64,000 nt of DNA, taken from positions 124,001 to 188,000 of the forward strand of contig NC_011683.1 of NCBI RefSeq assembly GCF_000150955.2, given 5' to 3'. The position numbers were made by a program, and so were the translations under genes. Source of the DNA: Phaeodactylum tricornutum CCAP 1055/1 (taxonomy: Eukaryota > Bacillariophyta > Bacillariophyceae > Surirellales > Neidiaceae). This document shows, piece after piece, positions 13,489 to 62,756 of the stretch; positions within the stretch are counted from its first letter, which is position 1; every line of letters starts with the position of its first letter. Under the pieces are notes generated by a model. The model was given only the letters and a program-made list of their open reading frames with translations, was not told the DNA's origin and made no database searches.

Positions 13489-14939
13489 ATGATCCGCTCG
13501 TGCGTATCTGTACGACTCTTGGTCTGGACATGTTTGGTAGGCTTGGTGCGTTCCGACGATCCCATGGTAGCCTTGGTCTACACTCCGAGTCACACCCGCA
13601 CTCGTCCAGGATATCATCCACCAACTACCGGACACCCTCGGCAATCCTGTCCGTCCGCGTCACCGTACACTACCTTCTTGTCGTCCCAAGGTAAGCATCG
13701 TCACCACGAATCCAGATGTTGGTAGGCACGGGTGTTTTTTTTGATCGAGTTCCACCATCGACCCACGAACGGAAGTGGGGGCGGTTGGAAGGCTCGGGCA
13801 CGGCTCACCCGCAAAGCGTGTCATTGAGAACTCGCACTACTATGCTCAAGTTTTCGTGTGTATGTGCGTATCCAAAGCTAAACTCGCATCCATCACTCAA
13901 CACCAGTGCGTCCCTTTCTACCGTCATTTGTACAGCATCGCAATCCGGAGACGGACACAGTCACCACCATCACACTACTGGACCCCACGTGGACGCCCGG
14001 CCGTCTTCGAGTTTGCCCCTGCGTCCAATGAACAAAAAGAATACGCCCAAAAAGTCACGCCGCAAGGCATCCCGTCGATCACGTGCCAATCCCTTGTCCC
14101 CCGAAGACTTGTCCGATCACGTGTCCAATCTATACATTCACGGACCCGGGGGTGTCCTCCCGCACAAATTCGATACTCTAACCGCGTCGGCCGGTATGCG
14201 CGACGACGGAACGAGCCACTCGCAAGACAATACCCACCTTACCTGCTCCCAGGCTGCCGTCCAACGACTGGACCGTCATCCCGCACTCGTGCTCAATGCC
14301 GATTATCAACCACTAACGTATCTGCCGCTCTCCCTCTGGAGTTGGCAAGATGCCGTCAAGGCTATCTTTTCTGGGAAAGTCACCGTCGTGGACGTCTACC
14401 CGGACGTTACCATCCGTGCTGCATCCTTGGAACTCCCCTTGCCATCCGTCATTGCCCTCAACGAGTACGTCCCCACCTACCAATCCCGCCCCGCCTTTAC
14501 CAAACGCAACGTATTTCTACGTGACGAGTACCGCTGTCAGTACTGCGCGGACCAGTTCCACACCCGCGATTTGTCCCTCGATCACGTCGTCCCAAGGTGT
14601 CGGGGTGGTCGCTTGACCTGGGACAACGCCGTCACCAGTTGTCGACACTGTAACGGACGCAAGGGGTCCCTGGACGTTACCCAGCTCGGCCGGGTCGGGA
14701 TGCGCCTTCAACGATCCCCGCACGTGCCCACACCCTACCAACTCGCTGCTATTGCCGCACGTATGCTTCCCCGTAAGGTGCACCCAACCTGGGAACCCTA
14801 CTTACAAGCTGGAACGAAATCAAAGTCTGCCGCCCGGGAAGCATCCGTCGACGCATCCCGCAAGACGAACGAGTCTGCCGACTCGGTGGATTGCGTATCC
14901 ACGGGCGCCACCACACGGTCGGCCCGAGCCGTTCCGTAA
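13489..14939 (+). CDS. HNH endonuclease-domain protein with N-terminal signal sequence
   Basis: Best model: exon 1 13489-13690, intron 13691-13935 (GTAAGC...TACAG, 245 bp, phase 1), exon 2 13936-14939, giving 401 residues. Exon 2 is read with confidence; exon 1 is my inference from splice ends and phase. The nuclease core is YRCQYCADQF ... LSLDHVVPRCRGG ... WDNAVTSCRHCNGRKG: two CxxC zinc pairs around the DH motif of the HNH fold, close to the McrA-like proteins of bacteria and cyanobacteria. Upstream is the block ALVLNADYQPLTYLPLSLWSW that accompanies this type. Exon 1 encodes a hydrophobic leader (VRLLVWTCLVGLV). Without it, translation could start at 13716 or at an internal Met. Role unknown; DNA or RNA cleavage is the family expectation. 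Confidence 0.78.
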
Positions 14940-56911: not shown

Positions 56912-58351
56912 TTATTGTTGACGGTCCGGGCGACCGAGCTGCAGAAGCGGCGTATTGAGACGGACTTGTACATTTTTGCCGCGGGTTCGGACGTCAAAGA
57001 CTGCCGCCGCGGTGGGGGGCTTGACGGCCCCTACGATCTTGCCTAGAATGGGAGGATAGGGACACCACTCTCCCCGGACCTGGCCCGACCCGAGGGCAAA
57101 TGCTGTCTTGTGCAACGGGCAAACAATGCAATCTTCGCAACCATCCTTCTGAAGTATCGAGCTGACTTCGAGTTCGGTAAAAAAGCCACTGTCGGGGCCT
57201 TTACTGTTGGAAACATCCGTTTCGGAGTACGACTCTATAAAACTTGTCGTGGACTCTTCCACGGGTAATCGCACGAGTTTGCCCGTCTCGAGTGGCGTCC
57301 CCAAATGGGGACACGAATTGGCCAGGCAGTACAAGGTCCGTCCGTCCGCGGCCGCGATAACGAGTAAATCCAAGCCCGCCACGGTGACGGGTACCATTTC
57401 ACCAGGGGAAATGCGGGTTTTCGGAAAAACATCGAACCATTCTTCGTCAGCACCTTTCGATTTTCCACCGGTACCGTCGCTTCCGTCTCCACCGAAACTG
57501 AAGGACTGTATGTAGTTTTGCAGAACCGATAATGGATTGGTGGAGTTCTTACCTCCCAACGCCACAACGTTTTCGTCGGATGACGATGTGTTGTTACGAG
57601 AGGAAAAGACGCCCAAGATCCGAGTCATTGCGCTCTTTTTTGAGTCGTCTGAATCTTCATCCGCCCCCGGTGTCGCTTTCTTCGTGTCGGTGTAGTTAAA
57701 GAGACTTTGCCATCGACCCGCAGTGCCGGCTAGGAAACCATCGACACTCGATTGCGATTCTTTGGATTCCCGCTGCCGCACGTTGGAAGCTTTGGTCAAG
57801 CTTTGACTTTTACTGACCCTTTTGGAAACACTTATTGTCTTCTTTGGGGCAGTTTTCTGGCGCTTGCTGTTTTGTCGGGCGACTTCCTTTTCAACCACGT
57901 CGTTCCCGCTCTTGGGAAACAAATTACGAAACAGTCCTCCGGAAGACTTCTCGGGCTGTACTGGTTCCGGTATCGGTGCTGGTTCTCGTGTAAACAAGCG
58001 TTTGACTCGACTCCCGAGTCGCTCGGACGAGTCCTCGTCGTTACTGCGACGGCTGTCGTCGTCGTCGATTTCCGACCTTCGCCGTCGTTTGCGGGACGGA
58101 TCTTTCGCGTCACAGCGAGTCAGTGGACGCCGACGAATGGATCGTGTCGTGAATCGTGTCCGCACGCCGCCAATATTGTAAAAGGTTGGCGTAGTGGGGG
58201 TCTCGGACCAGTGTCGTTGTCGTATGGGGGGACAATCCGGTGGCGCCAGTGACCGTGGCACAGATTGTCTACGGAAAGTCTGCGGACTACCAGTCAACCA
58301 AGCGTCCGCTACCATGGTAGATACGACGATATAGAGAACGAACACACGCAT
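56912..58351 (-). CDS. Plastid-targeted Rieske [2Fe-2S] domain protein
   Basis: 479 residues from the Met at 58351 (the frame is open upstream to 58420, but this Met gives the better leader). The leader MRVFVLYIVVSTMVADAWLT is a signal peptide followed by an A-W plastid-like motif. About residues 50-330 are Arg/Ser/Lys-rich and low-complexity. Near residue 344 begins the Rieske centre: YCLANSCPHLGTPLE with Cys and His of the first CxH, and CIVCPLHKTAFALGSG with the second CxxH. The rest of the domain follows and no other catalytic domain is seen. Without an oxygenase domain this is more like a ferredoxin-type or electron-transfer Rieske protein. It is divergent from the MiaB fusion gene. Confidence 0.85.
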   Translation of the reverse strand: MRVFVLYIVVSTMVADAWLTGSPQTFRRQSVPRSLAPPDCPPIRQRHWSETPTTPTFYNIGGVRTRFTTRSIRRRPLTRCDAKDPSRKRRRRSEIDDDDSRRSNDEDSSERLGSRVKRLFTREPAPIPEPVQPEKSSGGLFRNLFPKSGNDVVEKEVARQNSKRQKTAPKKTISVSKRVSKSQSLTKASNVRQRESKESQSSVDGFLAGTAGRWQSLFNYTDTKKATPGADEDSDDSKKSAMTRILGVFSSRNNTSSSDENVVALGGKNSTNPLSVLQNYIQSFSFGGDGSDGTGGKSKGADEEWFDVFPKTRISPGEMVPVTVAGLDLLVIAAADGRTLYCLANSCPHLGTPLETGKLVRLPVEESTTSFIESYSETDVSNSKGPDSGFFTELEVSSILQKDGCEDCIVCPLHKTAFALGSGQVRGEWCPYPPILGKIVGAVKPPTAAAVFDVRTRGKNVQVRLNTPLLQLGRPDRQQ

Positions 58352-58847
58352 ATATTTATAGAGAGAGAGGAAACCAATTCCGAGAGTCTTTTGGACTATA
58401 TCAAGCAATGGCTTGTCCATTCCACCGGCGGGGAAGGAAATTGGGAATCCCTGGGGGATGGTTCGAAATCACATCGGATGGGACGGCCAGGGGGATCTCT
58501 CCCTATTTCCCTCTGGACGTACGGTGCGGGGGTTCCCACGAAGTGGTGTGTGTCACAAAGGCGCGCGTCGGGGAAGATCCATCCGTCGTTGACTTGGGGA
58601 ATCATCAGTCACATGTGACGTGGAAGACGAATGGAATCGCTGGCGCGCCCAGTACTCAGATTTTTATATCAACGGCGTCCGTCCGGCGCCAGATTCCGAC
58701 GGACCAACGGACGGACCGCGTCCGAGGAAAACATCCCCCAATGGCACACAAGCCCTATTCAGCTTTTGATTGTTTTTCGACAGGCACAGTCTGGCTCCGT
58801 ATTGGCGTGGGTCACTTCCCGTGATACTCTCGTACCATTGCGCACGT
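58352..58847. promoter_or_regulatory. Shared divergent promoter region
   Basis: 496 bp separate the starts of the Rieske protein and the parvulin-MiaB fusion. No gene is supported in it. A GAGA-rich run lies near 58361-58369. Confidence 0.4.
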
Positions 58848-61019
58848 ATGACACCGCGGAGAACGAACGGGTCGGCACACCGACCAGGAAGCTGGTGCTT
58901 CATTCGTGTTGCGGTGGTGGTGTTGGTCGTTGGCCGGAGCACGCCGTGGGTGGGGCCCGTGACGGCAACGGCAGCCTTTACGGTCGCACGCTTCGCTCCG
59001 CAGCGTACCAGGAACGCACCGTTGACGTCACGGACGTACACGCCGAACGTGCCGTCGTATGCCACGGCGAGCCCAACTTCCGTGGATCCTTCCCACACCG
59101 TCGTTACCGAAGCTCCACCAGGATGGTTTCCGACTCAGATTCAAAGCACGGTGGACTACGATGCCATTGTCTCGCGCTTGTATCTGCGTCACATTGTGAC
59201 CGAGACGCAAAGCGTTGCCAACCTTGCTGTCCAGCAGTACATGCAAGCCTTGCGTCAAGAAGTCCCGATCTTGTCGGACGAAGACCAGCATCAAGGGAAG
59301 AATCACAACGATCCTTTTGCGCAACTAGCGACTCTCATGTCGGCGTGTGCCGTCACCCGACACGAAGGAGGCAAGATTGGTTGGATGGCGAACGAAGCGG
59401 GAGACGAACTCGAAATCTTTCCCAGAGATGTCGTCCAACAACTGTATGATCGGCAACCCAAAGCGGGTGACATTCACGTCATTCAATCGAGCCAAACGTT
59501 GCAGTGGCATGTCGTGCAAGTCGTGGAATTGTGGATGAAATTCCAAGCCGACGCAATGTACGACGAAGGCCGTGTAGGCTCACACAAGGGCAAAAATGCG
59601 ATTCTACAGCGCGGCAAACTCAAGGGCCTGGGTGTCACACCTTCTATACCGACGTCGATGCAAACGTACCATATCCAAACTTCCGGTTGTCAAATGAATG
59701 TGGCGGATTCGGAGCGCCTTGCCGGGGTCCTTAGGAATGAACTAAACATGCGCGTGGCTGACCAGTCACAAGACGCTGATTTGGTCCTTTTCAATACCTG
59801 CAGTATTCGCGACCATGCCGAACAGAAATTGTACGATGCACTCGGTCCGTACGCTGCCCAAAAGCGCAAAGGACAGAAACAAATGGCCCTCATCGTGACG
59901 GGCTGTGTCGCGCAACAAGAAGGTGAAGCGTTACTGCGACGCGTGCCCGAAATAGATGTCGTGCTTGGACCACAGTACGTGCCTTTTTTGAAAAATGTAT
60001 TGGAGAGCGTCAGCCTTGGACAGCAAATTGTGGCCACTGCGCCAATGTTATTGCAAGAAGACGTGAGTGGAAGCAGTGCAGATTGGAATCACAAGCCTGT
60101 CCGGGGACACGACGTTCGAGCCTGGGTCAACATCATCCATGGGTGTAATGAACATTGCACTTATTGCGTTGTACCGGGTACGCGAGGAATGGAACAGTCG
60201 CGAACGATGGAAGCCATTCTGCAGGAAATAATCGATCTTGGAAGGAGAGGCTATAAGGAGGTGACGTTGTTGGGTCAAAATATTGACGCATACGGTCGAG
60301 ATATGGTCCCAAAGAGAACGTTCGCCGATTTACTCACATTCCTGAATTTTAGGATTCCCCAGGACGATATGCGGATTCGTTACGTCACCTCTCACCCGAG
60401 GTATTTTTCGGACCGTGTGATTGATGCGGTCGCCAACCTGGACAAGGTGTGTGAATGCTTTCACATGCCTTTTCAAGCCGGTGACGATGAAGTATTACGG
60501 CGGATGCGGCGCGGATATACGTACGATTCCTATATGCGCATCATCCGCAAAATTCGGGACAAAGCACCCGATGCGGCCATTTGTGGAGATGTCATTGTCG
60601 GATTTCCCGGTGAGACTGACGAAGGCTTCGAAAAGACGCTCCAACTCATGGAAGAAGTGCATTTTGACAATCTGAACACGTTCGCCTATTCGCCACGACC
60701 GAATACGGAAGCGGCTACTTGGGATGATCAAGTTCCCGACTCAGTCAAAGCCGAACGCCTGCAGCGTGTTCAAACGTTGGCAGCGGAACATGGGCTAGAG
60801 CGCAGCATGCGGTATGTAGGTCGTGTTGTACCCGTGTTGGTAGAAGACGGCAACCCCCGGAATCCCGCACAAGTAATGGGACGCACACGACAAGGCCGTC
60901 AGGTGTATTTTGATGGCGATCTGGCTGCCTTGCGAGGGGAGATAGTGGATGTACATATTACCGAAGCCCGAACGTGGAGTCTCATGGGGGAGCAGGACGT
61001 ATCCGAGCCCAAACTCTAA
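58848..61019 (+). CDS. Parvulin-MiaB fusion: tRNA-2-methylthio-N6-isopentenyladenosine synthase, probably plastid
   Basis: 723 residues from the Met at 58848 (frame open to 58770). A signal-like helix (IRVAVVVLVVGRSTPWV) leads to ATAAFTVARFAP, a plastid-type motif. Residues about 115-245 resemble a parvulin (PpiC) rotamase: RHIVTETQSVANLAVQQY, FAQLATLMSACAVTRHEGGKIGWM, then a Gly/Val C-end (TLQWHVVQVVELW). The rest is complete MiaB: three N-terminal cluster Cys (TSGCQMN, FNTCSIR, VTGCVAQ), the radical-SAM site CNEHCTYC, GEVTL-type core and a C-terminal TRAM domain (VGRVVPVLVEDG...). MiaB adds methylthio to i6A37 of tRNAs reading UNN codons. The parvulin part is not in known MiaB of bacteria or plants, to my knowledge. 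I rate the MiaB call very high and the parvulin call good. Confidence 0.93.
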   Translation: MTPRRTNGSAHRPGSWCFIRVAVVVLVVGRSTPWVGPVTATAAFTVARFAPQRTRNAPLTSRTYTPNVPSYATASPTSVDPSHTVVTEAPPGWFPTQIQSTVDYDAIVSRLYLRHIVTETQSVANLAVQQYMQALRQEVPILSDEDQHQGKNHNDPFAQLATLMSACAVTRHEGGKIGWMANEAGDELEIFPRDVVQQLYDRQPKAGDIHVIQSSQTLQWHVVQVVELWMKFQADAMYDEGRVGSHKGKNAILQRGKLKGLGVTPSIPTSMQTYHIQTSGCQMNVADSERLAGVLRNELNMRVADQSQDADLVLFNTCSIRDHAEQKLYDALGPYAAQKRKGQKQMALIVTGCVAQQEGEALLRRVPEIDVVLGPQYVPFLKNVLESVSLGQQIVATAPMLLQEDVSGSSADWNHKPVRGHDVRAWVNIIHGCNEHCTYCVVPGTRGMEQSRTMEAILQEIIDLGRRGYKEVTLLGQNIDAYGRDMVPKRTFADLLTFLNFRIPQDDMRIRYVTSHPRYFSDRVIDAVANLDKVCECFHMPFQAGDDEVLRRMRRGYTYDSYMRIIRKIRDKAPDAAICGDVIVGFPGETDEGFEKTLQLMEEVHFDNLNTFAYSPRPNTEAATWDDQVPDSVKAERLQRVQTLAAEHGLERSMRYVGRVVPVLVEDGNPRNPAQVMGRTRQGRQVYFDGDLAALRGEIVDVHITEARTWSLMGEQDVSEPKL

Positions 61020-61082: not shown

Positions 61083-61937
61083 CTATATAATCTCGGTTCG
61101 TTCTGATCCATCCACATCCACATCCTCCAGAGGAATCGCGTCCATACTTTCCATTCCGACTTGTTCCGGTTTGTGTTCCACAAAGGAAGTGAGCTGTAGA
61201 TCATCCAATTGTGGTGCGTTATTGGTATCCATTTCCTTATTCGAAGCATTCCTCCGGCCGCGTCGAAGCACTAAAAAGATCGCGCCGGCTACCACAGCCA
61301 GCACCAGGGCAACCAGGATAAATACAACGCCGGCACTAATCCCGTCGTCGCCATCCGTAAAGGCCCGCGTCGCATCCGTATAGGTGAGCTCCTTCTCTGG
61401 TGCGGTTCCCGCAGCGTACTGACAGTGGCGGCCTTCAAATTGCCCCACACACCGACAGCCGGGATGCGGAGATCCGGGCGCAATCGTCTCCAGACAAGAG
61501 CCACCATTCACGCAAAAGGCGTAGGACGATTCGGTGAGACCAGTTTCGCAGGAAACTCCGTGCGGAAACTCGCACTGGTGCCCCGCAAAGGCGGTACCAG
61601 TGCTTGTATAGGCCGTGCTGCAATCGCACCACCACACATCCTCTTTCGTGACGCCATCGTAGTGACCCGCCTCTAGACAGCTGCCGCCGTTGTAGCAGAC
61701 CGTGGCGGTGCCCGCCGGATTCACGGTATCCTCACACAGCGTGAACGGTATGGAGCAGTCAGCACCGGCGAACCCCGCTTTACATCGACACGCTTTCTCG
61801 CAGTCTCTACCTGTGCAGGTCCGAACGACATTAGAGCAGCGACCGTAAGGTCCACAGGCGGGGCTGCACTCTTGTTGGGCGGTCGCGTACTGAAACATTA
61901 GGGAGAGTAATAGGAACAGGCCGAGTCGAATGTGCAT
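61083..61937 (-). CDS. Type I membrane protein with EGF-like repeats
   Basis: About 284 residues from the Met at 61937 (frame open upstream to 62018). It has a signal peptide (LGLFLLLSLMFQYATA). The ectodomain has three or four Cys-rich EGF-like units: CSPACGPYGRCSN..CRCKAGFAGADC, CYNGGSCLE..CDC, and CVNGGSCLE..GCRCVGQFEGRHC. One membrane helix (ISAGVVFILVALVLAVVAGA) is followed by a basic stop-transfer RRGRRN and an acidic cytosolic tail. The topology is that of a cell-surface or endomembrane adhesion or receptor protein. Diatoms have many such EGF proteins; the ligand is unknown. It is convergent with the MiaB fusion, 60 bp apart. Confidence 0.82.
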   Translation of the reverse strand: MHIRLGLFLLLSLMFQYATAQQECSPACGPYGRCSNVVRTCTGRDCEKACRCKAGFAGADCSIPFTLCEDTVNPAGTATVCYNGGSCLEAGHYDGVTKEDVWWCDCSTAYTSTGTAFAGHQCEFPHGVSCETGLTESSYAFCVNGGSCLETIAPGSPHPGCRCVGQFEGRHCQYAAGTAPEKELTYTDATRAFTDGDDGISAGVVFILVALVLAVVAGAIFLVLRRGRRNASNKEMDTNNAPQLDDLQLTSFVEHKPEQVGMESMDAIPLEDVDVDGSERTEII

Positions 61938-62756
61938 TACCCGGTCTCCACATCCATACGTTTTGCCTCGTGTCATGGTTTGAAAAGGAGGGGGTTTGAG
62001 AGGAAAAGGTGCTAGCAATGAGGATTGCTGTAGGGTACCAAAAGGGGGAGGTTTGGATGGAGAGTCTCTTCTCTGTTTTCGGATTCTTTTTGTACCAAAT
62101 GCCGCCGGCTCTGTGGCGCTGTGTAGTTCTGAGTGACTGAGTGAGAAATTCCATAGACGGGATGAAAGGGAAGATCCCTCTCGCCTCGCTAATGGAATGC
62201 AAACAGGTCTACTCTACTAGTAGGCACGGTACGTAGAACATCCCACATTTACTTGTTGAATACCGAAACGACACACTTTTTATTTTGGAACGGATATTAT
62301 TCGTCAAATTTTGTCGTCGCCATTGGCTGGGTCCCTTGTTTCACATTCAAGGAAATCTCTGTACATGGTTTGCTCCGACACTACTTACTCCCTCTACTAG
62401 CTAGGCTGCATTACGTTGCTTGCAATAACGTGCATTGACTCATTCGTTCAGCACTTGCAGTAACTGTAAAGAGAAAGGTCCGGCGAAAACTCGAACTGCT
62501 ACAGGAAACAGAACAATCTGAAGCAGCCAACGAGAATAGCAACCGTTCCATGATAGCACTTGACTTTTCGACCGTGCTGCACTTTGCCAACAGCATGAAG
62601 TTGTGCAGTAGAACGATGTGTATTTGTGTTTCCACTTTTTTAAATTTCGCAACGATGAATATCTAGACCGTGCCGCTAAATGTAAGCAACCATGATTTTT
62701 AGTACACCAACGCAAAACTTGAGACTTTGCCGTTTCCTGCTTCACGAGCAATCCTT
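61938..62756. other. Intergenic, 819 bp
   Basis: Upstream of the EGF-repeat gene and downstream of the leftward NMN adenylyltransferase. No gene supported. Confidence 0.5.

Follow-up and report, generated by a model that had tools for sequence, protein, structure and literature searches.

The window analysed here is a stretch of 64,000 nt from Phaeodactylum tricornutum (NC_011683.1:124,001-188,000, forward strand), and coordinates are positions within it unless another contig or locus is named. An open reading frame on the forward strand (58770-61019) is open throughout and has its first ATG at 58848, from which it encodes, as a single open frame, a protein of 723 amino acids (coding sequence 58848..61016, stop codon 61017-61019) with neither internal stop nor intron. 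From the N terminus onward, this protein comprises a putative bipartite plastid leader (58848..58979), a predicted parvulin-type rotamase domain at residues 108-230 (59169..59537), a linker at residues 231-272 (59538..59663), and the three Pfam domains of a MiaB enzyme, UPF0004 (59667..59969), radical SAM (60126..60647), and TRAM (60810..60992). A second protein, P0001 (718 aa), is 99% identical to it.

The divergent neighbor (56912-58420, complementary strand), whose ATG lies about 430 bases from that of the fusion gene, encodes a Rieske [2Fe-2S] protein (Pfam Rieske E 1.4e-10, residues 327-382) with a long N-terminal part ahead of the domain. On the other side of the fusion gene, 61083-62018 (complementary strand) encodes a Cys-rich protein in which EGF-like stretches and a hydrophobic segment were seen by eye, with no Pfam match at E 0.001, and a protein with an HNH endonuclease domain is encoded on the forward strand at 13716-14939 (Pfam HNH_5, E 5.3e-14).

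A complete MiaB of probable cyanobacterial descent

The window protein matched UPF0004 (residues 274-374), Radical_SAM (427-600), and TRAM (655-715) above all Pfam cut-offs, and scored 448.4 bits over residues 273-715 against TIGR01574 (MiaB), for which the cut-off is 355.3. The six cysteines C281, C318, and C353 in UPF0004 and C433, C437, and C440 in the radical SAM domain were invariant in 30 of 30 aligned rows. A preliminary description of this DNA had read here a complete MiaB with six cluster cysteines and a TRAM domain in one uninterrupted frame, and Pfam, TIGR01574, and the reading frame bear this out. For comparison with bacteria we used the best 80 of 579 MiaB loci (65 cyanobacterial and 15 other), in which identity to the window MiaB core was 47-56% for cyanobacteria and 37-43% for the others. 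The MiaB cores of the fusion proteins fall into two clades, A (with the window protein) and B (with a paralogue described below); in a tree of 36 rows (9 of clade A, 17 of clade B, and 10 cyanobacteria), the three groups were each recovered at 100/100, and clades A and B were joined at 100/100, adjoining the 10 cyanobacteria. These comparisons point to a plastid-type MiaB (tRNA i6A37 methylthiotransferase) of cyanobacterial origin, onto which an N-terminal parvulin appears to have been fused. MiaB methylthiolates i6A37 in tRNAs whose codons begin with U, and on plant and algal chloroplast tRNAs the presence of i6A or ms2i6A has been confirmed (PMC8877259).

A divergent parvulin domain ahead of the enzyme

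Pfam profiles recognized the rotamase domain of the window protein below both cut-offs (Rotamase_3, 16.2 bits against 22.5; Rotamase, 15.5 bits against 21.7), with both matches covering residues 147-226. For the window protein alone, the HMMER comparison suggested in the preliminary description thus put the MiaB models far above their cut-offs but left the rotamase models as subthreshold matches. This low score favors a reading of the frame as a chance extension, a mis-assembly, or a wrong gene model in which two genes are read as one, an explanation to which we give almost no weight, since the parvulin fold and its active-site residues are conserved and the same fusion recurs in a paralogue, in named diatoms, and in transcriptome reading frames (see below). 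Among the 11 clade A proteins (including the window protein and its near-copy), 9 matched Rotamase and 9 matched Rotamase_3 at E<=0.1 (best 3.4e-6), and all 26 clade B proteins scanned, out of 120 listed, matched both models at that threshold (best 5.8e-10). P0002, P0007, P0011, P0013, P0142, and P0147 exceeded at least one Pfam rotamase cut-off, with P0138 and P0149 below both.

A structure model of residues 86-262 has the element order b-a-a-a-b-a-b-b, and its top 40 Foldseek rows (E <=0.38) are parvulin-type foldases save 9a7d and 3nrk, whose titles are uninformative; the first non-parvulin fold appears only at E 0.49. All 60 PDB sequences among the domain-profile matches listed were likewise parvulin-type by name or title. 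On the modeled structure, residues ~108-230 have the parvulin fold, so that a rotamase match by structure prediction, which the preliminary description had asked for, is found. The parvulin landmarks that it had named are present in order, but the modeled domain occupies residues ~108-230 rather than 115-245. Past the domain, linker residues 232-248 have pLDDT <50 in the full-length model and are followed by a KLKGxGVxP stretch conserved in clade A; the linker between the parvulin domain and MiaB is probably flexible, judging from this model.

Profile comparisons, whose E-values assume a database of one million sequences, connect the domains of the two clades. With the clade B domain profile, all 10 domains of clade A were recovered at E 5.5e-19 to 4.3e-7; in the reverse direction, the clade A profile matched clade B from E 5.3e-19 (best 12 rows). 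The genome's five other parvulins reached E-values of at least 0.27 with the clade A profile and at least 11 with that of clade B. Built from these five, a profile gave only weak matches to the fused domains, the best being 5.1e-5 for clade A and 8.7e-5 for clade B; the window domain, at E 5.9, ranked second weakest among ten clade A domains. The Pfam Rotamase search of the genome itself returned the five other parvulins and the paralogue on contig C4 and missed the window domain, and such a search is therefore no test of absence.

A duplicated fusion family in diatoms

A search of the genome (27,450,724 bases in 88 contigs) with the whole protein identified a second locus, C4:251364-253335, matching the query from residue 82 onward. 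It encodes a second parvulin-MiaB fusion (L002, 1318-3496), interrupted once, by an intron in the radical SAM portion; its rotamase scores 28.3 bits (cut-off 22.5), and its MiaB core lies above the TIGR01574 cut-off. A third locus, on contig C6, matched the window protein only from residue 273. The C6 protein (L004, 1051-3213) has a MiaB core that scores 364 bits with TIGR01574, just above the cut-off; rotamase profiles found no match in it (E about 0.6), and it forms a separate branch in a core tree (FastTree, 70 rows, rooted arbitrarily on one bacterium). We take it to be probably of the mitochondrial CDK5RAP1 type. In the Pfam search of the genome, which intron-split genes could escape, UPF0004 occurred at these three loci only and no CDKAL1/RimO-type enzyme was seen.

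With the N-terminal region of the C4 protein as query, 165 proteins matched at E<=1 among 1473 candidates; read by eye, each of the 120 matches listed has PF00919, and a rotamase family is present in every one except P0073 and P0097. A repeat limited to proteins of ~594-1890 aa matched 50 of 1485 candidates at E<=5; even the weakest of them reached E 1.6e-23, with nothing between that value and 5. Organism names accompany 13 of these 50 (37 have none), and all are diatom genera: Nitzschia, two Pseudo-nitzschia, Seminavis, Amphora, Mayamaea, Cylindrotheca, Epithemia, Fragilaria, Thalassiosira, Cyclotella, Mediolabrus, and Skeletonema, with the lineage checked for four of them. Amphora is the only named organism among the ten clade A matches. 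No fusion outside diatoms was found among the named matches of these searches, which require shared five-residue words and could therefore miss diverged fusions in other algae.

Both parts are present in seven reading frames (P0046, P0074, P0080, P0101, P0137, P0146, and P0148) from MMETSP, a transcriptome project; the frames are labeled complete (the label of P0046 is itself incomplete). One transcript thus spans parvulin and MiaB in clade B, and for this paralogous clade the seven frames contradict the two separate transcripts that the preliminary description had considered. Existing annotation also records the combination in part, as UniRef names P0118 and P0143 peptidylprolyl isomerase and UPF0004, Radical SAM, and PPIC-type domains all appear in the JGI name of P0077. 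A chance extension of the reading frame or a fusion created by assembly is contradicted, for the family, by the paralogue, the other diatoms, and the transcriptome frames. Sequence comparison instead suggests a duplicated, diatom-wide family, of which this genome keeps clades A and B plus a third MiaB without a parvulin.

A bipartite plastid leader on the window protein is plausible from its sequence. The plastid-type leader of the preliminary description stands insofar as a hydrophobic stretch (residues 16-29) and an ASAFAP-like A42-A43-F44 are present, but the gap between them is long. A simple rule of our own is passed by the window protein despite this gap, and by 7 of the 9 proteins considered in clade A and 90 of the 114 in clade B, against rates of 0.123 and 0.079, respectively, on shuffled sequences. 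P0007 and P0008 fail the rule, and 1 of 10 clade A and 25 of 139 clade B proteins were left out because an N-terminal Met or enough sequence was absent.

History of the fusion

The simplest history suggested by these trees and distributions is one fusion to the plastid MiaB, followed by duplication, before the split of centric and pennate diatoms. A recent fusion in P. tricornutum alone was rejected in view of the paralogue and the tree. An origin of clade A within pennate diatoms was rejected with less certainty (p-AU 0.00114, at a cost of 46.18 log units), in a test whose constraint set 9 clade A and five pennate clade B rows against 10 cyanobacteria and five centric rows, with the other seven clade B rows free; the group was chosen after the tree had been viewed, clades A and B are on long branches, and some pennate and centric labels are provisional or based on the tree.

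Inheritance of the fusion from cyanobacteria was rejected, with no rotamase upstream of the 80 bacterial MiaB loci. Three rotamase profiles run under default filters on three frames upstream of the best 80 of 579 loci found nothing, a few of these loci holding little upstream DNA (L063 only 133 bases). The open frame before the MiaB core was shorter than 100 residues in 75 of the 80, and the five longer ones were all cyanobacterial. The earlier expectation that bacterial MiaB has no parvulin domain holds in these 80 loci (65 cyanobacterial, 15 other).

Active site and proposed role

A domain alignment had 149 rows, 10 from clade A and 139 from clade B, and excluded P0001 because it nearly duplicates the window protein. 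Of its columns, 100 were filled in at least 95% of rows, and nine of these were invariant: H115, C167, G175, G178, W179, K205, G207, D208, and H221. With hhalign, H115 (59190..59192), C167 (59346..59348), and H221 (59508..59510) align to the His, Cys, and His of another parvulin of the genome, which places H115 and H221 at the first and last active-site His of parvulins and C167 at the active-site Cys seen in the Pin1 type, each unchanged in 149 of 149 rows. The chance of these three named columns all falling among the nine invariant ones is 0.0005, computed when the alignment had already been viewed. In human Pin1, the active site uses Cys113, His59, His157, and Ser154 (PMC8716364). The Ser154 position, three residues before the last His, is Ser in 0 of 149 rows (N, Q, E, L, or R in clade A, mostly R in clade B), and the residue two before the last His is Gly in 139 of 139 clade B rows and Q or R in clade A. 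The fused domain is presumably closer to the Par10/SurA type than to the Pin1 type with its phosphate specificity. The active-site residues appear to have been kept since early diatom evolution, in centric and pennate species alike.

We propose, with a probability of about 0.5, that the parvulin domain serves as an in-cis foldase for plastid MiaB. The protein would be imported into the plastid and would make ms2i6A37 on plastid tRNAs. Its MiaB part would arrive unfolded through the plastid membranes, in need of cluster loading and perhaps reloading, and the flexibly tethered parvulin domain could work in cis, by isomerizing prolyl bonds or by binding clients as a foldase, and so help the imported enzyme to fold, to load or rebuild its iron-sulfur clusters, or to stay near its partners. 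In one current scheme (PMC8584467), MiaB breaks down its auxiliary cluster as a sulfur supply, so that the cluster must be restored. The fusion points to the parvulin domain as a candidate aid in maturing or repairing such enzymes, an idea open to direct testing, since the domain lends itself to deletion or mutation in cis.

The conserved active site would also fit a purely binding role. The window protein may have little or no isomerase activity left, given its insertion at ~residues 139-155 and the Q or R that replaces Gly in clade A. A domain that no longer isomerizes might be a docking module, one that attaches to proline-bearing stretches of a partner in the plastid (the ribosome, a cluster carrier, or MiaA) and holds MiaB beside its substrates. 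The preliminary description had offered both ideas, help in folding the enzyme and docking to the plastid translation apparatus, and either may hold. The drift of clade A from the parvulin consensus and the low-confidence, probably flexible linker are in keeping with such a module, but a simple docking surface would hardly seem to call for three active-site residues that are invariant in all 149 rows, and we regard docking as a possibility about half as probable as the foldase role.

The invariance of C167 throughout the alignment is also in keeping with a redox switch, in which the parvulin Cys senses peroxide or the thioredoxin state and tunes MiaB activity or stability; a redox-sensitive Cys beside an oxygen-sensitive enzyme in an oxygen-producing plastid would make sense. 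PMC8716364 reports a pKa of 4.9 for the corresponding Cys69 of PIN1At, which under H2O2 forms a disulfide dimer that thioredoxin reduces, but also that PIN1At tolerates Asp at this position in yeast. Cys is moreover common at the C167 position, being present in 4 of the 5 other parvulins of the genome (sequences read by eye), and its conservation consequently does not show a redox role, which leaves this switch unlikely and somewhat behind docking. The sole exception, L010 (contig C1, complementary strand), is a parvulin in which Asp replaces the active-site Cys and which has a hydrophobic segment at its C-terminal end.

Comparison with known systems

The claim that a parvulin joined to a complete MiaB is an unusual architecture is supported here. 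Among the titles and abstract openings listed from the open-licence literature searched, none names a parvulin-MiaB fusion; the parts are known, and their joining is new as far as that literature goes. Cyanobacterial and plastid MiaB (TIGR01574) shares UPF0004, radical SAM, TRAM, and the six cysteines with the fusion, but differs in the parvulin domain, which was not found in the best 80 of 579 bacterial loci. SurA, PrsA, and Par10 are foldases without an attached RNA enzyme, unlike the diatom fusion, and in SurA both aligned stretches carry Asp at the position of the fusions' invariant Cys.

The nearest likeness in print, one of domain order, is to Arabidopsis STR12/PAR3 (PMC8716364) and wheat TaPar32 (PMC9797600), in which a parvulin lies N-terminal of a sulfur-handling domain as it does here. 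STR12 is reported to have a chloroplast targeting sequence. The partner in these plant proteins is a rhodanese, whereas in the diatom fusion it is a radical SAM methylthiotransferase. A far less probable reading, which we mention as a long shot, is that the invariant Cys takes part in sulfur chemistry as a persulfide carrier or redox sensor serving the MiaB auxiliary cluster, handing over sulfur or gating the rebuilding of a cluster that MiaB may sacrifice at each turnover; the fusion would then be a plastid counterpart of the parvulin-rhodanese STR12. The fusion is of more interest than a lone odd gene because it appears to be old, is duplicated, and has kept its active-site residues. It would also be the second example, after STR12, in which a parvulin and a sulfur enzyme share one chain that starts with a plastid-type leader.
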